Source of the DNA: Pirellulales bacterium
GTDB taxonomy: Bacteria; Planctomycetota; Planctomycetia; Pirellulales; JAEUIK01
Direction: 5' to 3'
Length of the DNA stretch: 64,000 nucleotides
Assembly: GCA_019745975.1 (NCBI GenBank)
Contig: JAIESQ010000099.1
Coordinates: forward strand, 1 to 64,000
The position numbers and the translations under genes are program-made. The notes under the pieces were generated by a model. The model searched no databases. It was not told the DNA's origin and saw only the letters and a list, made by a program, of their open reading frames with translations. Of this stretch, positions 1,860 to 36,055 are shown one piece after another (position 1 is the stretch's first letter; the number at the start of each line of letters is the position of its first letter).

Positions 1860-2438
1860 ATGGCCGAGAAGCCATCGCGATCGACGACCGAGATGCTCGC
1901 GGCCATTGCCGCCGGCGATGCCCGCGCGGCCGACGAGCTATTGCCCTTGGTCTACGATGAGTTCCACCGCCTGGCCGAAAGCTATCTGCGGCGCGAATCG
2001 CCAGGGCACACGTTGCAGCCGACCGCCTTGGTGAACGAAGCCTATTTGAAACTCGTCGATCAAACGCGCGCCGACTGGCAGGGGCGCACGCACTTCTTTG
2101 CGCTCGGCGCGCAGGCCATGCGGCGCATCCTGGTCGATCACGCCCGGCGCAAGCAGCGCGAGAAGCGCGGGGGCGGAATGCACCGCATTGCGCTCAATGA
2201 AGAGCTGAGCGTGTCGCCGCGCCGCGACGAGGACCTGGTCGAGCTCGACGAAGCGCTCAATAAGCTGGCGAAGATCGACCCCCGCCAGGCGCGGATCGTC
2301 GAGCTACGCTTCTTCGGGGGGCTGACCGTCGCCGAAGTAGCCGAAGCGCTGGGCGTGTCAAAGCGGACTGTCGAAAACGAGTGGACGATGGTCCGGGCCT
2401 GGCTGCGACGCGAGCTGAGCGGAGACACCAACGCGTGA
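1860..2438 (+). CDS. ECF-type RNA polymerase sigma factor (planctomycete Sig-70_X6-like)
   Basis: The 192-residue protein has sigma region 2 (about 20-95, including LQPTALVNEAYLKL and MRRILVDHARRK) and region 4 (about 130-185, VELRFFGGLTVAEVAEALGV). This is the short ECF architecture of the TIGR02999-like group. ATG 1860 is preferred over the TTG at 1854 because the GGCGGGGGG stretch then has normal spacing. The stop overlaps the GTG start of the downstream receptor kinase by four bases (GTGA), so the two are translationally coupled. This is the usual ECF plus kinase pairing, in which kinase signalling is thought to control the sigma factor. Confidence 0.9.
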   Translation: MAEKPSRSTTEMLAAIAAGDARAADELLPLVYDEFHRLAESYLRRESPGHTLQPTALVNEAYLKLVDQTRADWQGRTHFFALGAQAMRRILVDHARRKQREKRGGGMHRIALNEELSVSPRRDEDLVELDEALNKLAKIDPRQARIVELRFFGGLTVAEVAEALGVSKRTVENEWTMVRAWLRRELSGDTNA

Positions 2439-4825
2439 ACGCCGGCCGTCACGAGCGCGTCAAGGAGCTGTTTCTCAAGCTGTGCGACGCCGACCCTGCC
2501 ACGCGCCGCGCTACGCTCGACCGCGAGTGCGCCGGCGATCCGTCGCTGCGGGCCGAAGTCGAATCGCTTTTGGCCCATCACTCCTCGCGCACGATTCTCG
2601 AAACCGCGGGTGCGCGAACGACCGTGGCCGCGGCTGCCCCCGAAAAATCAGGTCCGTTAGCTACTCTGCGGCCGCTAGCCCGACACATGCGCGCCGGGGC
2701 ATCGCGGAACAAATGGGTCGTCGCCGCGATGGTCACCGTGGCGGCGTTTCTGCTGCTGGGGGGCGCGCGGCTGCACTACGGTATTCGCGGCGCGCTCGAA
2801 AAGCTGCTGCGCGACGAGTTGCAGACCGTGCTCGACGCCGATATCGCAGCGCTCGAAGTCTGGATGTGCGATCAGGAGATGGACGCCGCCCGCTGGGCCC
2901 GCCGTTCCGAGTTGATCGGGCCGACCAAAGACCTGGTCGCCGTCTGGCGGCAGAACTCGCAGCCCGGGCCCGAGTTGCTGAAATCGCCGGCGCTGGTCGC
3001 CGCGCGCAAGGTGCTCGATCCCTACCTGCAAGAAGAAGGAACCAGCGGCTATTACATCATCAGCCGCTCGGGCATGGTCCTGGCGGCGCACGACGATGCC
3101 GCGGTCGGACGGCGGGTATCTCCCGACGGCATTGCCGCGATCGCGCGGGTGTTCTCGGGCGAGGCGCGGATCAGCCGCCCGTTTCCGCAAGGAACCTATG
3201 ACACTGAGTCCGCGCTGGCCAGCGATACTCCGCAGATCGCCGTCGCCGCGCCGATCCGCGACTCCGATAACGAACCGCTGGCGGTGCTCAGCCTAGGAAT
3301 GCGGGCCGACGAACAGTTCACGCGCATTCTGTCGGTGGCGCGGATGGGGCGCTCGGGGGAGACCTACGCTTTTGACGATCGGGGCGTGCTCCTCTCTGAC
3401 AGCCGCTTCACCGACCAGCTCAAAAAGATCGGGCTAGTTCCCAATCGGCCCGACGCCCGGGCGATCTTTCACGTGCAACTGCGCGATCCGGGTGTCGACT
3501 TGACCGCCGGGGCGAAGCTGCCGTCGTCGCTGGCCGCAAAACAGTTTACGCACCCCGTGTCCATGGCCATCGCTAAGGAAGACGGCGTCAACGTACGTGG
3601 CTACCGCGACTATCGGGGCGTGCTGTGCATCGGTGCTTGGAAGTGGCTGCCCAAATTCGATTTCGGGGTGGTGACCGAAGTCGACTACGACGAAGCTTAC
3701 GCGCCGCTGCAATATCCACTCTTGGCGGTGCGCTGGGCGGCGCTGGTGCTGGCGGCCACGCTCGTGGGTTTGATCATCTCGGCGTGGCGAATCTCCCGGC
3801 TCGCGGGGCAAATCGGCCAAGAGCGGCAACTTGGCCCGTACGTGCTCGAAGCGGAGATCGGTCGCGGCGGCATGGGCATCGTCTACCGCGCCAGGCACGC
3901 CATGCTGCGTCGTCCCACGGCGGTGAAGCTGCTGCCGCCCGCGCAGACCAGCGCGGAGAGTTTGGCGCGGTTCGAGCGCGAAGCACAACTGGCCAGCGGG
4001 CTGACGCACCCCAACACAATCGAGATTTACGACTACGGCTGCGCCGCCGACGGCACATTCTACTACGCCATGGAATATGTCGCCGGCATCACCCTCGCCG
4101 AGCTGCTGGCCGTCTCTGGCGCGGTCGGCGCGCCACGGGCCATCTACCTGCTCAAGCAAATCTGCGGTTCGCTGCGCGAAGCGCACGCCGCCGGACTAGT
4201 GCATCGCGACATCAAACCGCACAACATCATGCTCTGCCAGCGCGGCGGCGAAGCCGACTTCATCAAGGTGCTCGACTTCGGCCTGGTTAAGAATATCGAA
4301 ACGCCGCGGGCCGCCGAGATCACCGCCACGGGCAAGCTGACCGGCACGCCGCTGTATCTCGCGCCCGAGCGCGTCACGCAGCCGCAGGTCGCGGATCCGA
4401 GGAGCGACATCTATGCAGTCGGCGCGGTCGGCTACAACCTGGTCACCGGGCGGCCGATCTTCGCATCGGCCAGCGATTTCGACGTGCTCTACCAGGTAAT
4501 GAACGTGATGCCGACGCCGCCGTCGCAGATTGTGCCCGATCTGCCGCCGGAACTCGAGCGGCTACTCATGCGCTCGCTGGCCAAATCGCCCGACGACCGC
4601 CCGGCCAGCATGAGCCAGGTGCTCGACGAACTGGAGCGAATCGAAGCGCAGTTGCCGCGCTGGACCCAGGCCGACGCGCAAGCGTGGTGGCGCGCGACGG
4701 AAGGGAAGCTGCTAGAAATTGGCCGGCAGACGTTGGGCGCCGGCAACGATGCACGACCCGCCGAGCAGGCAACGCTGCCGCTGCGCAGCCCGTCGGCCAA
4801 AGCGACCGCGTCGAAAACAGGGTAG
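2435..4825 (+). CDS. transmembrane Ser/Thr protein kinase with extracytoplasmic Cache-like sensor
   Basis: Starting at GTG 2435 gives 796 residues. The order is: a short helical N-terminus typical of sigma-linked kinases (1-50); membrane segment 1 (about 92-112, AAMVTVAAFLLLGG); a roughly 310-residue outer domain; membrane segment 2 (about 427-452, LVLAATLVGLIIS); then a full kinase domain (about 465-740). The kinase has GRGGMG, the AVKLL lysine, HRDIKPHN, DFG and APE. The outer domain has features seen in double-Cache sensors (SGYYIISRSGMVLAAHDD and a later GETYAFDDRGVLL), so small-ligand sensing is inferred. The N-sensor/C-kinase order is the reverse of the common PknB layout. The start overlaps the sigma factor stop. 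Confidence 0.88.
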   Translation: MNAGRHERVKELFLKLCDADPATRRATLDRECAGDPSLRAEVESLLAHHSSRTILETAGARTTVAAAAPEKSGPLATLRPLARHMRAGASRNKWVVAAMVTVAAFLLLGGARLHYGIRGALEKLLRDELQTVLDADIAALEVWMCDQEMDAARWARRSELIGPTKDLVAVWRQNSQPGPELLKSPALVAARKVLDPYLQEEGTSGYYIISRSGMVLAAHDDAAVGRRVSPDGIAAIARVFSGEARISRPFPQGTYDTESALASDTPQIAVAAPIRDSDNEPLAVLSLGMRADEQFTRILSVARMGRSGETYAFDDRGVLLSDSRFTDQLKKIGLVPNRPDARAIFHVQLRDPGVDLTAGAKLPSSLAAKQFTHPVSMAIAKEDGVNVRGYRDYRGVLCIGAWKWLPKFDFGVVTEVDYDEAYAPLQYPLLAVRWAALVLAATLVGLIISAWRISRLAGQIGQERQLGPYVLEAEIGRGGMGIVYRARHAMLRRPTAVKLLPPAQTSAESLARFEREAQLASGLTHPNTIEIYDYGCAADGTFYYAMEYVAGITLAELLAVSGAVGAPRAIYLLKQICGSLREAHAAGLVHRDIKPHNIMLCQRGGEADFIKVLDFGLVKNIETPRAAEITATGKLTGTPLYLAPERVTQPQVADPRSDIYAVGAVGYNLVTGRPIFASASDFDVLYQVMNVMPTPPSQIVPDLPPELERLLMRSLAKSPDDRPASMSQVLDELERIEAQLPRWTQADAQAWWRATEGKLLEIGRQTLGAGNDARPAEQATLPLRSPSAKATASKTG

Positions 4826-24379: not shown

Positions 24380-24430
24380 TGCGACGCCGCCGCCACGCCA
24401 CCCGAGAGAGCTCTTGGCAAGATGTGCGGG

Positions 24431-24847
24431 TTAGGCGCTGGGCGGCTGCCGGTGAACCGCCAGGGCGCTGGCCCCTTCGAGCCGGTCGACCTCGACTTCG
24501 AGCTCGGCGACCAGCCGCTCGAGATTGGCCTCCAATTCGGCGACGCGGCCGAAGGCCTGGTCGCCCGACTGCTGGCGCCGGCGGGCGAAACGCACCCTCA
24601 TTTCAGGGAGTCGATTGCGGTCTCCGGGCTGCGAGCTCCGCTCGCAGGTTTGTGCCTCGGCTTCAACAACCTCGTCGACCGCCGGTGCGTAGAGACGCAG
24701 CGACACCGGGGCGGCGGGCGCTTCGGGAACCTCAACTGCCGCCAGCGCCGCCGCGAGGCGATCCAGCTCCATTTCCGTGTCGGCGACCGATCGGTCGGAC
24801 GTGCCAGCCGGCTGATCCCAGGTTTCCAGATGAACGATGCGAAACAC
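24431..24847 (-). CDS. small coiled-coil hypothetical protein
   Basis: From GTG 24847 the frame gives 138 residues. It opens with VFRIVHLETWDQP and ends in a leucine/valine heptad stretch (VAELEANLERLVAELEVEVD) that should form a coiled coil. Codon third positions are strongly G/C, as in real genes here. The frame remains open upstream to 25924 but loses protein-like character. The start is therefore a judgement, and no good ribosome site is visible. Function is unknown. Confidence 0.45.
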   Translation of the reverse strand: MFRIVHLETWDQPAGTSDRSVADTEMELDRLAAALAAVEVPEAPAAPVSLRLYAPAVDEVVEAEAQTCERSSQPGDRNRLPEMRVRFARRRQQSGDQAFGRVAELEANLERLVAELEVEVDRLEGASALAVHRQPPSA

Positions 24848-25409
24848 AGGTCGCTTGCTGATAGCAGATCGCACGGAGCGGGCCTCGCACGGCAGCGGCC
24901 CTCGACATCCGCATCTCGGCGCGGGGCCAACAGCTCTCGAAGCGCAGGTCGATGGCCGCCGGCCGATCATCGGGAGGCCGTGCGAGCCGCCACGTCGACT
25001 CGTAATGCCATTACGCCCCGCGCACCTATGTAAGTGCTTCGGCTGCGGGCTGGCCGCCGACTTGAATCGAAAACCGCGATCCAACACGGTGCCGCGAGTT
25101 CGCCCCGACGGCGCCAAGGCATTTGGGAAGAATGCGTCGGTCGCATCGGCAATCGCTGGTAGTTGCCCGGCGAAACCACGGCGGTAGCATCTTCCGACTC
25201 GCCGTGGCGCACCACGTGCGGCGCGCCCGGCACAGTGGCCTGGCATTCCCCGGCGGCAGGGTGGCACACGGACCCCGGCTCCCGTTAGAATCGGTCTTGC
25301 CGCACCCCGCCCGCAGCGGCAAAAGCTCCCTACGCCACGTATAGTCTTGTAGAAGCCGACCTCCCGCCCCGCACAGGCTGGGTGGCGTTTTTCTCTTGCG
25401 GGGTACCGC
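24848..25409. other. intergenic stretch without a supported gene
   Basis: About 560 bases between the coiled-coil gene and the kinase-PBP gene, which diverge. The open frames on both strands are Arg/Pro/Cys-rich shadows. It should hold promoters for both neighbours, but I cannot assign -35/-10 pairs with confidence. Confidence 0.4.
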
Positions 25410-28244
25410 GTGACCGCTCCTACATCCCTTGGCTGTCCTGAGCGCTCGGTTTTGTTAGCGTTCGTCGAGGGACGGCTTTCCAACGCTGAAGCCGATCGGG
25501 TGCGGCAGCACTTGTCGGGCTGCGAGCACTGCCGACACCATCTGCCCGATGTGCCCACGATCGGGCCCGAAGACGGTATCCGGATCGGCCACCTGGTCAA
25601 CGAGTCGATTCCCCCGACGGCCGTCACGAGCCAACAGGACACCCAGCGAACTCCCGTTCCGGGCGCCGCTGGTTCATCGCCTGCCAGCCCGGCGGCAACC
25701 GACAGCGTAAAACCCGACAGCGGCGTGTCGCTCAATAAACCGGCACCACCGCCCGCCGACAGCTCAACGCTGGCACGCGGTGGATTCTCCCCCCCCGCGC
25801 GACCGGCAGCCCCCACGCCGGGGAGCGCTCCGCCGGTCGAAGTCAGCCGCGCGCGGATCACCTTGGGCCCGTCGCGGCACGTTACCGCGGTCGGGTCGAG
25901 CGGCGCCCCGCCTAAAGGCCGCAAGGCCGATGCCCGTTATCCGTTCCTCGATCCACCTCGCGTCGCTGGCGATTTGGGCTGGCTGTCCGGCTATCGCGTG
26001 GTGCGTCTGATTGGGTCCGGCGGAATGGGACAGGTGTTCGAGGCGATCGACGAAACGCTCGCGCGGCGCGTGGCCATCAAAGTCGTCCATCCGCAACTGG
26101 CTGGCACCACGAATCACGAGCGCTTCTTGCAAGAGGCCCGCGCCGCGGCCGCCCTCCCTGGCGAACATATTGCCACGATCTACCAGGCCGGCTTCCAAGG
26201 GGATGTCCCCTTTCTGGCGATGGAGTATCTGACCGGCGAAACCCTCGAAGCGCGCTTGGAACGCGATCGCTGGCTGCCGCTCTCGACCGCGCTGCGGATC
26301 GCGCGCGAGGCGGCGCAAGGGCTCGCCGCGGCGCACGCCCACGGCGTCATCCATCGCGACGTCAAACCGGCCAACCTCTGGCTCGAATCGGCGCGCCCTG
26401 GCGACGATCTCAAAGGCGTCAAGCTACTCGACTTCGGCATCGCCCGCGCGATCGAGCGCGACGTGCAGGTCACCCGCGACGGCGAGATCGTCGGCACCCC
26501 GCACTTCATGGCTCCCGAGCAGGCCCGCGGCGAAGCGGTCGATCCGCGCACCGATCTCTTCGGCTTGGGATGCGTGATGTACTACATGCTCTCGGGCCAG
26601 GTTCCCTTCGGTACGGCCCAGGGCGCGGCACTGATGACGCTGGTCTCCCCCGATCCGGTCGATTTAACCGCGCTCGACGGCAAAGTCCCGCGCTCGGTCA
26701 TTCGACTCGTCGGGCACCTGTTGGAGAAGGATCCGGATCGACGCCCCGCGGATGCAGCCGCGGTAATCGATGCGATCAACCGCATCGAAGAGAACGAGAT
26801 GCAAAGTAGCAGCCGGGTTGCGCTGCCGATGAGCCAAATCATCGCCGGGCCGATCGCGCCGCGCCGCCGCCTGGCCTGGGGAGCCATGATGGGGGCCGCC
26901 TGCATCCTGGCATCGCTGGCCGTGGGAGGGATCGCGCTCTATTACGAGTTCTACGGACGCGGCCCAGCGGCCGGCGCCACTGCTGACGGGCAAAACAACT
27001 CAGTGGTTGGCGATGGACACTCCACAAGCGGCCCTCCCGGCAAGAGCCCACAGGCCCCCGCGCCGCCTCCCCAGGGCGAACCGATCCTCGTCGGTATTTT
27101 GCACTCGTTGACTGGCACGATGGCCAATAGCGAGCTGCCTGTCTCCGACGCCGCCCATCTGGCGGTCGAAGAGCTCAACGCCGCCGGTGGGTTGCTGGGC
27201 CGACCGGTCGAGGCCCGGATCGTCGACGGCGCGTCGGACGAAGAGACCTTTGCCACGCGGGCCGAGGAGCTGATCGCCCGCGACAAAGTCTCGGTGATTT
27301 TCGGCTGCTGGACTTCGTCGAGCCGCAAGCGCGTCAAGGAAGTCGTCGAGCGGCACGACAATCTGCTCGTCTACCCGCTGGCGGGCGAAGGGCTCGAGCA
27401 ATCGCCGAACATCCTCTACCTGGGCGGTCCCAACCACAAGCTCATGGATGCCGCCAAGTGGTGCTTCGCCTTTCTCGAGAAGCGCAAGTTCCTGCTCGTC
27501 GGCTCCGACTATGTCTTTCCTCGCGCTGCCAACGCAATCATCAAGGATCAACTCAGCGGGCTGGGCGCGCAGGTCGTCGGCGAAGTTTACGTCCCGCTCG
27601 GCGAAACCGATATGTCGGACGTCGTCAAGGCGATCGACGCCGGCAAGCCCGACGTGATCCTCAACACGATCAACGGCGACAGCAATGTCGCCTTCTTTCG
27701 CCGCCTGCGCAGCACGGGGCTCGACTATGAGAAAGTGCCGATCGTATCGTTCAGCATTGCCGAGACGGATTTGCGGGCGATGCGGCCTCAAGACGTCGTT
27801 GGCACCTACGCCTGCTGGTGCTGGTTCGAGCGGGTGCCGGGGGCGAGCAGCGCGGATTTCGTGGCCCGCTTTCGGCATCGCTTTGGCGCCTCGCGGCTGG
27901 TAGGCGATCCGGAGATGGCGGCCCATACGGCGGTGCATCTGTGGGCTCAAGCGGTTACAGCGGCTGGTACCGCCGATCCCGCCGCGGTGCGCAAGGCCCT
28001 GCTCGGCCAGAGCAGGCCCTCGCCGGAAGGAACGATCCACGTCGACCCCGAGCTGTTGGCCTGCTGGCGGACACCGCGGATCGGCCGCATTCTGCCCGAC
28101 CTAAGCTTTGAAGTGGTCTGGCAAGCGCCTGCTCCGCTGCGCCCCGTGCTCTACCCGCCGTCGCGCACGCCTGAGGAATGGAACGCCTTCCTCGAAAAGC
28201 TGTACCGCGACTGGGGGAACCACTGGACGGCGCCGCACGACTAA
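25410..28244 (+). CDS. Ser/Thr kinase fused to a UrtA/AmiC-like periplasmic ligand-binding domain
   Basis: The 944-residue protein starts at GTG 25410. It has an anti-sigma-like zinc finger (about 28-48, RQHLSGCEHCRHH) and a Pro/Ala linker. The full kinase domain (about 191-460) has GSGGMG, AIKVV, HRDVKPANLW, DFG and APEQ. One membrane segment (about 484-512) precedes a type-I periplasmic binding domain (about 556-920). The binding domain opens with ILVGILHSLTGTMA and has FGCWTSSSRKRVKEV and PVEGTI-like PSPEGTIHVDP blocks. These match urea/short-amide binding proteins (UrtA, AmiC, FmdD). A receptor kinase that senses an amide or amino-acid-like ligand outside and phosphorylates inside is inferred. 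Confidence 0.9.
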   Translation: MTAPTSLGCPERSVLLAFVEGRLSNAEADRVRQHLSGCEHCRHHLPDVPTIGPEDGIRIGHLVNESIPPTAVTSQQDTQRTPVPGAAGSSPASPAATDSVKPDSGVSLNKPAPPPADSSTLARGGFSPPARPAAPTPGSAPPVEVSRARITLGPSRHVTAVGSSGAPPKGRKADARYPFLDPPRVAGDLGWLSGYRVVRLIGSGGMGQVFEAIDETLARRVAIKVVHPQLAGTTNHERFLQEARAAAALPGEHIATIYQAGFQGDVPFLAMEYLTGETLEARLERDRWLPLSTALRIAREAAQGLAAAHAHGVIHRDVKPANLWLESARPGDDLKGVKLLDFGIARAIERDVQVTRDGEIVGTPHFMAPEQARGEAVDPRTDLFGLGCVMYYMLSGQVPFGTAQGAALMTLVSPDPVDLTALDGKVPRSVIRLVGHLLEKDPDRRPADAAAVIDAINRIEENEMQSSSRVALPMSQIIAGPIAPRRRLAWGAMMGAACILASLAVGGIALYYEFYGRGPAAGATADGQNNSVVGDGHSTSGPPGKSPQAPAPPPQGEPILVGILHSLTGTMANSELPVSDAAHLAVEELNAAGGLLGRPVEARIVDGASDEETFATRAEELIARDKVSVIFGCWTSSSRKRVKEVVERHDNLLVYPLAGEGLEQSPNILYLGGPNHKLMDAAKWCFAFLEKRKFLLVGSDYVFPRAANAIIKDQLSGLGAQVVGEVYVPLGETDMSDVVKAIDAGKPDVILNTINGDSNVAFFRRLRSTGLDYEKVPIVSFSIAETDLRAMRPQDVVGTYACWCWFERVPGASSADFVARFRHRFGASRLVGDPEMAAHTAVHLWAQAVTAAGTADPAAVRKALLGQSRPSPEGTIHVDPELLACWRTPRIGRILPDLSFEVVWQAPAPLRPVLYPPSRTPEEWNAFLEKLYRDWGNHWTAPHD

Positions 28245-28346
28245 CGCGATGCGGAAGCGCCTCAACCCTCGGTTCCACGCGGCGTGCCGTGGTGCCAGCC
28301 CAGTGGCTCGTCGATCGGTTCACTGCCATCCTGTTACGATAAGCTT

Positions 28347-29225
28347 GTGATTCACTACAACCGCAAAGCCTGGTGGCGGATCTCGCTGGCCTTCTACGGC
28401 ACCGTGCTGCCGCAGGTACTCGGTCGCGTCGGCTTGCTAACTGGCTTCTGCCTGCTGCTGAGCCTGGTCGACGACTTCATGAAGCGCGAGTGGGGCGGCG
28501 AGGTGCGCGTCCCCGAGCTCGATCAGCTCGGTCACCAGGTGCTCGGCGTGGCAATGAGCATGTTGATCGTGTTCCGCACGAACTCCTCGAACCAGCGCTA
28601 TTGGGAAGCGCGCACCTTGTGGGGCGCGCTGGTCAACGCCTCGCGCAACCTGGCGCGGCTGGCCAGCGTGTACGCCGGCCCGGCCGACGACTTGGGGCGG
28701 TTGATTGCCGCCTACCCGATCGCGCTGAAGCAGTCGCTGCGCGGCAACGAGGATTTGTCGGAGATCCGCCCGCTGCTTCCCGGGCGGCTGTTCGAGCAGG
28801 TCGTCGCATCGAAGAATCCGCCGCTGACCATCTCTTGCGACATGAGCCGCTGGGTGCAGCGCCGCCGCAACGACAACCGGCTCGATCCTGTAACGGCCTC
28901 GGTGCTCGAACAACAAATCGGCTTCTTGATCGACGCCCGCGGCGGTTGCGAGCGCATTCAGCGAACGCCGCTGCCGTTCGTGTACGCCGCGCTCATCAAG
29001 CAGTTGCTGTTGTTGTACCTGGCGTCGCTGCCATTGGTGCTCGTCGCTCGGATGGGGTTCGCCGCTCCGCTGGTTGTGGCGGTCGTCTCGCTGGGTATGC
29101 TGGGAATTGAGGAAGCCGGCGTCGAGATCGAGGACCCGTTCGGTCTCGATCCCAATAGTCTGCCGTTGGAAGACATCTGCCGCACCATCGCTCGCGACGC
29201 CAGCGCCGTGACCGCGGTGCCGTAG
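28347..29225 (+). CDS. bestrophin-like anion channel family protein
   Basis: Starting at GTG 28347 gives 292 residues. The opening RKAWWRISLAFYGTVLPQVL and the GVAMSMLIVFRTNSSNQRYWEAR block are diagnostic of bacterial bestrophins. SLGMLGIEEAGVEIEDPFG near the end is the conserved acidic/cytosolic segment. There are two clear membrane regions. Such proteins form pentameric ion channels; which ion is conducted here is unknown. It follows the kinase-PBP gene by 100 bases on the same strand. Confidence 0.88.
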   Translation: MIHYNRKAWWRISLAFYGTVLPQVLGRVGLLTGFCLLLSLVDDFMKREWGGEVRVPELDQLGHQVLGVAMSMLIVFRTNSSNQRYWEARTLWGALVNASRNLARLASVYAGPADDLGRLIAAYPIALKQSLRGNEDLSEIRPLLPGRLFEQVVASKNPPLTISCDMSRWVQRRRNDNRLDPVTASVLEQQIGFLIDARGGCERIQRTPLPFVYAALIKQLLLLYLASLPLVLVARMGFAAPLVVAVVSLGMLGIEEAGVEIEDPFGLDPNSLPLEDICRTIARDASAVTAVP

Positions 29226-31754: not shown

Positions 31755-34259
31755 CTAGAGTGCGCAGTTGAGTAAGTGATCACCTTGCCGCTGGCCGGCT
31801 AGCTGCCGATCGACGGCAGCCTCCCATTCGCCCAGCTCATTGAATCGGTAGGCGCGATCGCTATCCAGCGCCACCAGGTGCAACCAGCCATTGGTCGCCA
31901 AGTCTCTCACCGCAGGGTGGCGGTTGAGAATCGTGCCGATGGCCGAGCAGGGCGCCTCGACGACAACCAGCAGCCGCAGCGGTTCGTGCTGAAGTTGTCG
32001 GCCGTCGTGCACCGATTGCCACGGCAACCCTGTCATCAGATCGCCACCATTTCCCTGCACGACCGCGAACTTGCCCACCACGTTGTGCAGAACTTTGTTG
32101 CCGCTGCCAAACGCGCGGTTATCCACGGTCGACGCGTAGTACTGCAGATTGATCCAGTTGGCGACCACCACAGGCGCGGTCAGGATCAGTTCCAAGGTGC
32201 TGAGATCGTGATCGGTCGCGTGTTCGTAGCTGTGTAGGAACGCCCGACCACGCAGGTTGCATCCCTGCGTCCGCGCGCGGGGAGCCGCGATGAAGGCCGC
32301 ATTGCCAGCCAGCCCCCACTCGGGCCGGACCTCCGACCAGTCGCGACTGCGCGACCAGACGGCGTGCGGAGTCGCCGCGCCCAGTCGCAGGGCACGGTCC
32401 GCGCGATTTCGCCGGCCTGCTTCTTGAGTCCATTCGCGCAAGTTCGCGAAATCGGACCGCAAGGCGGCCGGCAGCAAGCCTTCGTCAAAGTACGTGATCT
32501 CGTCGGTGGTCGTGTTGTGCAGCGCCGCCAGGAACCAGGTATCCTCCGGAATCGTTATTCCGCGGCTGGCGAGGCCCTGTCGCACGCTGGCGTCATTCAG
32601 CAGGGCCGCCGCCAGACGCGCGTTCGGCTCGCCGGAATGGCCGCCACACGCGCCGCAATCGAGACTGGCCTGATACGGATTGTTGACCGTTTGACTGCCA
32701 TGCCCGCAGAGCACGACCAGCCGGGCAAAATCTTCTGTCAGCCCGAGCTTCCGCAGCATATTCTCAGCGAACACCAAGCGTTGCTCGGGCGCGAGCCCAG
32801 TGTTTTCGGCCACTCGTAGTTGTGGCCCAAGCAGGGGACGAACCGCGTTAGGCACGCCATCCAGCCGTCCCGTCGGATCGCCGCCTTGTAAACCAAGCGT
32901 CCGACTCACCAGTTTCACCACCGCCAGCCAGCCCAACGTCTCCACAAACGTGAAGCCCGAAGTCGTCCACTGAGTGAAGCCAGTCCACAGTCGCCTGAAC
33001 GTTCGCATCGCCAGTCGCCGATCGACCATCTCGGCTTCGCTGGAGTCATGCGGACAAGGCAGGCCTTCAGCAATGCGTACACTTGGCGTGAGCAGCACCG
33101 GGCACTGTGCTCGACCCTTCGCGCCGCCCAGCGGCCGATACTCGATCGGCATGCCGAAGAAACCGGCGAACCCGAAGGTCTCGATCTCGTCCGAAACGGC
33201 TTCCAGGCATCGGCGCAGCGGCTCCGATCGCACGTCGATACAGAAGACCAATTGCGCGGTTCGGCGGCGCGGCATTGGCAGCGGGCGGCGACGCGCCGTT
33301 AGCTGAACCAGCAACTGGCGGCGATAGGCGATCTCGACGGCGCCTTGCAAGATGTAGCGAATGGCAGCTTCTCTCGGCGCAAGACCCGTTGTCTCGTCTT
33401 GGTCGTTCGCCTGACGGCGCCCAGCGCCGGTCGCGTCGGCAGGCTGAGAACGCAGACCCAAGGAGACCAGCGCGGCATCGTACGAGACACAAATCGCCAA
33501 CAGCCCGGTCAAGTCGTCGCGGTATGTTTCGGCAAGCTGGGGATCGCGCTGCAGGTACTTGATATACGACGCCCAGCCCTTAACCGCATATAACTGTCGC
33601 GTGAAGTAGTCCTGCCGCGCTTCAGGCGCCACGCCGAGCGCCTCGATCGACTCGGCGATTGCTGGGAGCGGCTCAACCGGCAGGTGCGCCACTCGTTCGC
33701 GAAATCCCACCGCGCCAAGGCGGTCCATGCGCAGATCGAGAACGGCCGCTTCGCGCCAAGCCGTGTACAGCGGCTGGTTCTTCCAAGGACTCGGCCAGAG
33801 TGCCTGCCCTTGATCGTAGTGCCGCTCGCAGTGCTTGGTAATTTCTTCCACCAGCACAGCACGCCACGGGTCGGCCGCCTCCCTCGGCGAGACCGGGGCG
33901 CTTGCCGGATGGGGTTCAGCCGTGGCTTCCAAGCGGGCGATAAGCTCCTCGACATCGAAGTCGGCAAAGAGCGCGGGGTGGGCGGCACCGACCTCGTGGA
34001 GCGATTGAGCAAGGTCTTCGCTGGTGAACCGGCCGTGGCTCCAGAGCTCGCCAAAGTACTCCACCGGCATGAGCATCTCGGCATCGGTCCAAGCGCGTAG
34101 CCGTTGGCGCGCCGTCAGAAAGTCGTCTCCGCTCAATCCCAAGAATGGATTGACGGCGACAAAATCTTCGAGCGGCCACAGCGGCGCAAGGGCTGCTTGC
34201 GCTTGTCGCACCACGCTCGGTAGCTGCTCGCCAATGTCCACACCTGTCTGTTGCGACAC
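31755..34259 (-). CDS. dabA: DabA (DUF2309/UPF0753) inorganic carbon transporter subunit
   Basis: The 834-residue protein starts at GTG 34259, preceded by AAGGAG. The track's ATG at 34412 is upstream of that site. Family marks include FVAVNPFLGLSG near the start. The proposed zinc/active-site residues are also present: C and D in VFCIDVRSEPLRRC (about 340), H in CGHGSQTVNNPY (about 518) and C in DCGACGGHSG (about 533). With DabB it forms an energy-coupled vectorial carbonic-anhydrase-like pump for CO2/bicarbonate. dabB is upstream on the same strand with a 173-base gap. No rubisco gene is in the window, so use in anaplerosis or pH balance is possible. Confidence 0.92.
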   Translation of the reverse strand: MSQQTGVDIGEQLPSVVRQAQAALAPLWPLEDFVAVNPFLGLSGDDFLTARQRLRAWTDAEMLMPVEYFGELWSHGRFTSEDLAQSLHEVGAAHPALFADFDVEELIARLEATAEPHPASAPVSPREAADPWRAVLVEEITKHCERHYDQGQALWPSPWKNQPLYTAWREAAVLDLRMDRLGAVGFRERVAHLPVEPLPAIAESIEALGVAPEARQDYFTRQLYAVKGWASYIKYLQRDPQLAETYRDDLTGLLAICVSYDAALVSLGLRSQPADATGAGRRQANDQDETTGLAPREAAIRYILQGAVEIAYRRQLLVQLTARRRPLPMPRRRTAQLVFCIDVRSEPLRRCLEAVSDEIETFGFAGFFGMPIEYRPLGGAKGRAQCPVLLTPSVRIAEGLPCPHDSSEAEMVDRRLAMRTFRRLWTGFTQWTTSGFTFVETLGWLAVVKLVSRTLGLQGGDPTGRLDGVPNAVRPLLGPQLRVAENTGLAPEQRLVFAENMLRKLGLTEDFARLVVLCGHGSQTVNNPYQASLDCGACGGHSGEPNARLAAALLNDASVRQGLASRGITIPEDTWFLAALHNTTTDEITYFDEGLLPAALRSDFANLREWTQEAGRRNRADRALRLGAATPHAVWSRSRDWSEVRPEWGLAGNAAFIAAPRARTQGCNLRGRAFLHSYEHATDHDLSTLELILTAPVVVANWINLQYYASTVDNRAFGSGNKVLHNVVGKFAVVQGNGGDLMTGLPWQSVHDGRQLQHEPLRLLVVVEAPCSAIGTILNRHPAVRDLATNGWLHLVALDSDRAYRFNELGEWEAAVDRQLAGQRQGDHLLNCAL

Positions 34260-34432
34260 GCTCCACTCCTTGTTAGATTTGGCCGAGGCTTCACCACAAG
34301 TTGACCCTTTGGGGACGTAACCGCGCGATCCGCTGCCGGCAAGTCCGCGAAACCCGCTTGGGCCCCGCCTCACATCGACCTGCCGGACAGCGGACCTCAC
34401 GGGCTGCCGCACAGCGGACTACCTGGTTGCCA

Positions 34433-36055
34433 TCAGACATGCGGCGCCGCCAGTGGCGCGCCTTCGCTCGGGCGCCGCCAAACTCGCGTTACCATGCGCC
34501 GCGCGAAGATGTCCACGTAAAAGCCGTTGACCGCGTGCACCCATAGCGCCCGCAACGCGGGATTGCGCTGGGCCTGTTCCACGCCGGCCTGCAATCCGAA
34601 CATCGCCGCGAAGCCCGTCAACACCAGGAGCCATGCTGCCACATCCAGCGCCGATGGCCGGGGCAATTCCCGCGCGATCGAGTCGGCCAAAGCCGCATCG
34701 ATCAGGCGATAACCCAAGGCGTACGCCGAACAAACGGCCACCGCGCTGGCAATGCCGCGTAGCCAGATCCGAGGATTCGGGGTCATCAGGGCGTGCCATA
34801 GCAATTGCACGACGGCCAGGGTGAGTATCGCGCCCAGCAAGTAGCCACCCGGCTTTTTTGGCAAGTCGGCCCCCAGCCATGCGGTCCACAACCAACAAAG
34901 TGGCAGCGCCAACATCACAGCAGCACCCAACGCGCCCCACGAGGAGAGCACGCCGGCCTGGGCGTATTCGCGACCGTCCTGGGCTTGCTTCGATTGCACC
35001 GCCGAACCTGAGTTCAAGAAGGCGTGAGCCTTGTAAAGCGAATGTCCCACGATGTGCAGTAGCGCGGCGGCGAAGGCGCCGGTCCCGCATTGCAGCAGCA
35101 TGAAACCCATCTGCGCCACCGTCGAATAAGCGAGCGCTCGCTTGATGCTGACTTGCGTGAGCATCACCAGCGCGCCAAACAAGGCCGTCGTCGCGCCAAT
35201 CACCACGAGCAAGTCCAGAGCCACGTGGGAAAGGCAAAGCAACGGGCTCAGCCGCAACACGAGGAATCCGCCGGCGTTGATCACGCCCGCATGCATCAGG
35301 GCGCTGACGGGTGTCGGCGTCTCCATCGTGTCGGGCAGCCAACTGTGGAAAGGGAACTGCGCCGATTTGGTCATTGCGCCGAGCACCAAGCAGATGCAGG
35401 CTAGTTCCACGGTCCACGAAGGACCGGTCGCGCTGCTGTGTTCAGCGGCCGCCCAGGTAAACAACTCTTGGTAAGCCAGCGACCCACAAGACCAGTAGAT
35501 CAATGCCAGCGCCACGACCAGCATCAAGTCTCCCAGCCGGCTGATCAGAAACTTTTTGCGTGCCGCCAGCAGCGCGGCCGGACGGTCGGCGTAATGCGTC
35601 AAAAGCTGGTGCAGTCCGAGGCTGGTCAGAACCCAGGCCATGATGAATATGCCAAGGTTGCCGGCGACAACCAGGCTCAGCACGGCTCCGAGCGTGAAGC
35701 CAATCCAGCGCAGGAAGCGGCCCTGCGCGGGATCGCCATCGAGATACCGCACCGAATACCGGGCCACCACGACTCCCAAGCAGCTGATCAACAGCCCCAT
35801 GATGGCTGCCAGCGCGTCGAACCAGAGATCGAGCCGCAGCAAGTCGCTGCCCATCCCGACTTGTCGCGTCACGGCTCCCCTCGCCGCCACGCCCAGGGCA
35901 GCCAGCAGCAGCATCGCAGCGGCGATCAAGGTGGCCACAACCGTCAAGCGGCCCATCTGGCGCGGATGGCAATTGGCCCAGCGATCGGGGACGGCTCCGA
36001 GCAAGAGCAACAACAGCGGTGGGGCTCCCACCAGGGCGGCGAGCGTAGCATTCAT
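34433..36055 (-). CDS. dabB: DabB, NuoL/MrpA-like cation-coupled membrane subunit
   Basis: The 540-residue polytopic protein has the Proton_antipo_M core. ISRLGDLMLVVALALIYW, QFPFHSWLPDTMETPTPVSALMHAG and the following AFLNSGSAVQSK are typical of NuoL-like antiporter subunits. When paired with dabA this is the DabB partner that supplies the ion gradient. Membrane helices cover nearly the entire length. The gene is first in the operon. Palindromes and an AT-rich tract lie upstream (36070-36190), and a divergent winged-helix gene starts at 36328. Confidence 0.9.
   Translation of the reverse strand: MNATLAALVGAPPLLLLLLGAVPDRWANCHPRQMGRLTVVATLIAAAMLLLAALGVAARGAVTRQVGMGSDLLRLDLWFDALAAIMGLLISCLGVVVARYSVRYLDGDPAQGRFLRWIGFTLGAVLSLVVAGNLGIFIMAWVLTSLGLHQLLTHYADRPAALLAARKKFLISRLGDLMLVVALALIYWSCGSLAYQELFTWAAAEHSSATGPSWTVELACICLVLGAMTKSAQFPFHSWLPDTMETPTPVSALMHAGVINAGGFLVLRLSPLLCLSHVALDLLVVIGATTALFGALVMLTQVSIKRALAYSTVAQMGFMLLQCGTGAFAAALLHIVGHSLYKAHAFLNSGSAVQSKQAQDGREYAQAGVLSSWGALGAAVMLALPLCWLWTAWLGADLPKKPGGYLLGAILTLAVVQLLWHALMTPNPRIWLRGIASAVAVCSAYALGYRLIDAALADSIARELPRPSALDVAAWLLVLTGFAAMFGLQAGVEQAQRNPALRALWVHAVNGFYVDIFARRMVTRVWRRPSEGAPLAAPHV

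Follow-up and report, generated by a model that had tools for sequence, protein, structure and literature searches.

A planctomycete receptor Ser/Thr kinase with an altered urea-type binding pocket, encoded next to a bestrophin-family channel gene

Organization of the receptor kinase gene

The window analysed here is a stretch of 64,000 nucleotides from a Pirellulales bacterium (GCA_019745975.1, contig JAIESQ010000099.1). At 25410–28244 on the forward strand it contains a receptor Ser/Thr kinase gene with a GTG start and 944 codons, open throughout, whose product matches, from N- to C-terminus, the Pfam families zf-HC2, Pkinase and Peripla_BP_5, with a proline-rich linker between the zinc finger and the kinase. 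The zf-HC2 or ZAS-like zinc finger (aa 9–42; 25434–25535, +) is matched by Pfam over aa 16–42 (E-value 2.6e-7) and has the H-x3-C-x2-C pattern with an additional upstream cysteine (HLSGCEHC and C9); its zinc ligands C9, H34, C38 and C41 are invariant across all six nearest homologues. The kinase domain (aa 195–447; 25992–26750, +; Pfam E-value 1.4e-44) is of the Hanks type and carries the full set of motifs, GSGGMG, VAIK, HRDVKPAN, DFG and APE, with those of catalysis intact.

A hydropathy scan of the 944 residues finds a sole hydrophobic segment, with a core at aa 488–506 (26871–26927, +), and the positively charged sequence PRRR lies directly N-terminal to it, on the kinase side. Residues 484–516 form one helix in a full-length AlphaFold model of low confidence (pLDDT 57), which served for the transmembrane helix only. 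Since there is one transmembrane segment and it is preceded by PRRR, the kinase is predicted to lie inside the cell and the binding domain outside. Pfam, hydropathy and the modelled fold thereby bear out the sequence-only reading of this gene, which had described a zinc finger, a kinase, one transmembrane helix and a full UrtA/AmiC-like binding domain; that reading had also put the binding domain outside the cytoplasm, as predicted here, and no sign was seen of the inside-cell topology that it had named as grounds for refutation. Neither the domain architecture nor the fold match described below is due to chance.

The approximately 1 kb upstream of the kinase gene (24380–25409) holds no convincing gene, the ORFs scanned there having no Pfam match, and no RNA families were found between positions 20 and 40 kb of the window. 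Other genes of the window encode PSCyt2/PSD1 and DUF1501 proteins, which we take to be typical of planctomycetes, and, at 2381–4825, another kinase with an extracytoplasmic sensor, in which a dCache domain is followed by Pkinase.

The binding domain and its pocket

The binding domain (aa 560–918; 27087–28163, +) is of the UrtA/AmiC Venus-flytrap type. It matches Peripla_BP_5 over these same residues with an E-value of 3.5e-127, and its model (pLDDT 92.9) superimposes on the Caldicellulosiruptor urea-binding protein 8tg1 with a TM score of 0.94, an rmsd of 1.0 Å and 46 % identity; the next structure matches are cyanobacterial UrtA and AmiC (1pea). Both the profile match and the two-lobe fold place the domain in the Peripla_BP_5/UrtA-AmiC fold family. 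It falls outside UrtA proper on three counts: the NCBIfam UrtA model TIGR03407 is matched over its whole length but at a score below its cut-off (396.3 vs 492.75 bits), the eight-residue pocket is incomplete, and the genome lacks a Urt permease gene.

Nine residues surround urea in the structure of Prochlorococcus UrtA, of which eight are conserved, and Gln144 holds both urea nitrogens; when this residue is mutated, urea binding is strongly reduced or lost altogether (PMC10392092). Alignment of the window copy shows Ala and Gly at aa 658–659 (27381–27386, +) in place of Gln144 and Tyr145 (YPLAGEG vs YPIQYEG), although the other seven of the eight conserved pocket residues (W120, S122, Y141, E146, Y190, N246 and S274) are kept. 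A second altered loop lies at aa 676–677 (HK; 27435–27440, +), just after a one-residue deletion, where the GAAPNQQ typical of other fusions has become GG-PNHK; the first Gln of NQQ is invariant in all 24 of the other fusions aligned, and the second nearly so. Judged by these residues, a pocket is retained, though no longer one for urea. Loss of the pocket, which the sequence-only reading had likewise named as a ground for refuting its proposal, has therefore occurred by half, and a comparison of the pocket with the UrtA residues, along the lines it had advised, gives a divided answer. With seven of the eight residues in place, weak urea binding by the window copy is possible.

Changes of this kind could also mark a decaying paralogue, a post-duplication copy that binds no ligand and has a constitutive or degenerate kinase. 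The alteration of conserved pocket-loop residues is in keeping with decay, as is the end branch of the window receptor, which is among the longest (0.91) in the receptor tree described below. The reading frame is nevertheless intact and the kinase motifs are all present, the zinc-finger ligands and a linkage to a bestrophin gene (see below) are conserved over two families, and the ten departures of the receptor domain at conserved columns are ordinary among related fusions, which have from 1 to 21. We therefore regard decay as very unlikely.

A family of kinase–UrtA fusions

The searches covered 30 relatives, 392 genomes from the phylum and 397 from the order, and the loci (numbered with the prefix L) were then read. 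Kinase–transmembrane–UrtA fusions number 43 in 38 genomes, all in the same taxonomic class within this sample, and an architecture that recurs to this extent is therefore selected and not an accident of gene calling; the survey of domain order across planctomycetes that the sequence-only reading had called for thus finds it recurrent and conserved. The window protein has the features of this family, a kinase, one transmembrane segment and a C-terminal receptor domain that falls inside the single fusion clade. Its own genome encodes exactly two PF13433 proteins, both of them kinase–transmembrane–receptor fusions, and the urea pocket of the second (C142, L001) is intact, with all eight residues. 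A scan of genome contigs returned kinase-domain relatives only.

The receptor and kinase parts of these proteins have different histories. In a tree of 92 receptor domains (43 fused, 49 from other PF13433 proteins) the fused domains make up one side of a branch with an SH-aLRT support of 93, below the threshold of 95, and lie close to stand-alone amide-type proteins. A tree of the 43 fusion kinases with 18 other kinases of the window's own genome splits the fusion kinases into several groups with non-fused kinases interspersed, and a single clade of fusion kinases is rejected, at a cost of 111 log-likelihood units (AU p = 1.8e-8). Because the receptors form one clade and a single kinase clade is rejected, the receptor appears to be used as a module, and the simplest reading of the sequences is of one receptor module whose kinase partner has changed at least twice.

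The window kinase belongs to a ZAS-type lineage of six (window, L061, L065, L159, L160 and L162; support 99). The receptor domains of these six are not one clade in the free tree, although constraining them to be so is acceptable (p-AU 0.63), and a quick tree (support 91) and a careful small tree (69/66) disagree on where L061 is placed within the subfamily. Of the six, only L061, the family member closest to the window copy, has an intact pocket. In L065, L159, L160 and L162 none of the residues Q144, Y190, N246 and S274 is kept, and S274 has become Lys in L065 and L159, Thr in L160 and Arg in L162; we would guess that these S274 replacements suit an anionic ligand.

Other members of the family have other neighbours. 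A GlgX-like gene (glycogen-debranching-type, by sequence) lies directly 3′ of the kinase gene, at 13–275 bp, in six loci of another branch (L143, L144, L145, L146, L150 and L154), and a LOG-family-like gene precedes the kinase gene in five (L141 and L143–L146); these receptor kinases seem to be tied to other outputs. Five further proteins from genomes of the same taxonomic class (L070:6642–9848, L071:9686–12526, L073:7545–10379, L147:5693–8512 and L165:5586–8549) carry a UrtA-type domain at or near the N-terminus and form a separate clade with a support of 99. Where scanned they are hybrid histidine kinases, with HisKA-HATPase-REC in L070 and L073 and also Hpt in L070, and as L070, L071 and L073 have no transmembrane segment, proteins of this type are apparently cytoplasmic, AmiC-like sensors. 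We note also two tandem stand-alone PF13433 proteins in one genome (L075:7938–10765), whose altered pockets differ from one another (YAYEYWVG vs YAYESYHT), and a 1569 aa open frame (L074:7899–12608) in which PF13433 is confined to the C-terminus (aa 1197–1566), the first 1190 residues having no Pfam match.

Genes for urea uptake and breakdown

Of the 397 genomes of the order, 10 have a full match to urease alpha and five have UrtB above cut-off. All five UrtB genomes also carry PF13433 matches and urease, mostly a few kilobases apart on the same contig, from which it follows that the searches work. Across the 33 genomes of the order that encode a fusion, no UrtB scored above cut-off and no urease alpha matched in full; in the window's own genome UrtB is without a match at 1e-40 and urease alpha is absent, and urea carboxylase is above cut-off in none of 64 genomes, this one included. 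Since UrtB, urease and urea carboxylase are absent from the fusion genomes, the receptor kinases do not accompany urea uptake or degradation by the UrtB, urease, urea carboxylase or FmdA routes.

Two candidates for a missing pathway were set aside: the matches to TIGR02712, the model for urea carboxylase, are nearly all to biotin-carboxylase domains, none of them above cut-off, and an amidase route through FmdA has partial, weak matches in 18 of 70 genomes and none in the window's own. Avoidance of urease by the fusion genomes was also rejected; urease is rare (10 of 397) and fewer than one overlap is expected, so that the counts speak for a lack of association only.

These results bear on the original proposal, in which urea, or short amides, would be sensed directly by the receptor kinase as nitrogen nutrients. 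Its fold and most of its pocket residues are those of UrtA, and 27 of the 43 fusions keep all eight, among them the L001 paralogue, for which urea is a good guess. The window copy, however, has Q144A and Y145G, UrtB, urease, full urea carboxylase and FmdA are all missing from its genome, and its neighbour is a channel gene and not one of nitrogen catabolism. We consider urea an unlikely ligand here: the receptor kinase of the proposal stands, whereas its ligand and the simple nutrient-sensing role are weakened for this copy.

The bestrophin gene

The gene directly downstream (28347–29225, +) encodes a bestrophin-family channel of 292 aa, counted from the start supported by homologues; the mechanical ORF begins at 28284. 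It lies on the same strand as the kinase gene and 103 bp after it, and the stretch between them contains no terminator-like site. Both the profile (Pfam Bestrophin_2, 1.3e-74) and similarity to solved bestrophins, including a match over almost the full length to KpBest (4wd8; E-value about 1e-35), identify the product as a bestrophin. Its neck residues are V-M-F, as against I-I-F or I-F-F in studied channels.

A bestrophin gene is likewise the next gene after the kinase, on the same strand, in L065, L159, L160 and L162. The gaps in the five loci are −3, −3, 50, 52 and 103 bp, two of the pairs thus overlapping by a few bases; the bestrophins of the four relatives are 61–63 % identical to that of the window, and the five loci span two taxonomic families, between which the pair is kept and no other neighbour is. 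Kinase and bestrophin are co-inherited and probably co-transcribed. The contig of L061, the sixth member of the subfamily, lacks a bestrophin, and the neighbours of L061, a penicillin amidase and a PLP enzyme, are not common to the other members. Linkage therefore occurs in five of the six, all five with changed pockets, and the intact-pocket L061 is without it; because the place of L061 differs between trees, pocket change and linkage may be a single historical event, and the correlation merits no p-value. The altered pocket and the adjoining channel gene are both features beyond those that the sequence-only reading had described.

About 3 kb downstream, at 31755–36055 on the reverse strand, are DabA and an adjacent NuoL/DabB-like gene, a probable inorganic-carbon pump. 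Some bestrophins carry bicarbonate, and a bicarbonate sensor was accordingly considered; the idea was dropped, as the stretches read around the four relatives with a linked bestrophin contain no DabA gene.

The bestrophin might be simply a co-transcribed neighbour, sharing for instance a role in osmotic or ionic homeostasis, with the kinase acting elsewhere, such as on a sigma factor through the zinc finger. ZAS-type fingers from the zf-HC2 family are a typical feature of anti-sigma factors, and other fusions of the family adjoin quite different genes (GlgX-like and LOG-family-like), both of which suit a separate target. This alternative is distinctly unlikely in our view, as it is the kinase–bestrophin pair that survives between two families. 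Action of the kinase on the channel is plausible, since Ser/Thr kinases regulate bestrophins in animals, where channel activity changes on phosphorylation by PKA/PKC or CaMKII (PMC8496536).

Proposed function

We give about an even chance to the reading that the window protein is a receptor kinase whose Venus-flytrap domain binds a ligand other than urea and which works with the bestrophin channel. The Venus-flytrap domain, derived from a urea/amide solute-binding protein, would close around a small solute outside the cytoplasm, and closure would be relayed through the one transmembrane helix to the cytoplasmic Ser/Thr kinase, with the N-terminal ZAS-type zinc finger in a docking or regulatory role. 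The receptor kinase would not be part of a transporter. Because the pocket of the subfamily appears to have moved away from urea, the ligand is probably some other small solute, planar or polar, and because the receptor gene is inherited, and probably transcribed, together with that of the adjoining channel, control of the bestrophin would be the most likely output, whether the main one or one of several. We thus infer a kinase switched by its ligand, a ligand other than urea and a bestrophin target. A more specific version, in which the two genes form a cassette and a receptor kinase for small extracellular solutes, derived from the urea-binding protein of a transporter, opens or closes the bestrophin by phosphorylation, we hold to be rather doubtful.

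Relation to known systems

The binding domain shares full-length homology, the two-lobe fold and seven of eight pocket residues with UrtA of the UrtABCDE ABC transporter (8hic, 7s6e and 8tg1). Unlike UrtA, it forms one protein with a kinase, is anchored by an internal transmembrane segment, scores below the family cut-off, has Gln144 replaced and occurs in a genome without UrtB. AmiC, the Pseudomonas amide sensor (1pea), has the same fold put to sensing instead of transport, as in the window protein. AmiC is cytoplasmic, however, and acts by binding AmiR (complex 1qo0), whereas the window binding domain is predicted to lie outside and is covalently linked to its kinase. The window bestrophin differs from KpBest in its neck and aperture residues and in its linkage to a receptor kinase. 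RefSeq names include 'bifunctional serine/threonine-protein kinase/ABC transporter substrate-binding protein'.

Pathways in which a solute-binding protein signals to a Ser/Thr kinase are already known, with the two as separate proteins: in the actinobacterial GlnH–GlnX–PknG system an outside solute-binding protein reports nutrients to an inside Ser/Thr kinase (PMC6069109; PMC9769921). That system uses three proteins and the GlnH binding family, whereas the window system is one polypeptide with a different family. A co-occurrence of SBP_bac_3 and Pkinase in actinomycetes, given as a table entry with no function (PMC13293324), joins a solute-binding domain and a Ser/Thr kinase in one protein, but the solute-binding family is again different. 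Planctomycete Ser/Thr kinases are described as having a cytoplasmic kinase, usually one transmembrane segment and an accessory domain outside, and the accessory domains discussed in the main text of that account are WD40, TPR, sulfatase-modifying-factor and DUF1080, with none of the UrtA type (PMC11032199). In the openly accessible literature we found no paper on the kinase–UrtA family or on the kinase–bestrophin pair.

The stimuli of bacterial Ser/Thr receptor kinases are mostly unidentified, which has been called an outstanding question (PMC6069109). The kinase–UrtA family supplies many natural kinases with a receptor pocket that is already understood at the atomic level, and versions with an intact urea pocket and with a remodelled one both exist, sometimes in one genome. 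The kinase–bestrophin pair in addition names a candidate target, so that two genes would be enough to study stimulus, kinase and output jointly. If the cassette version of the proposal is true, this would be a bacterial ligand-to-ion-channel pathway that runs through a Ser/Thr receptor kinase.
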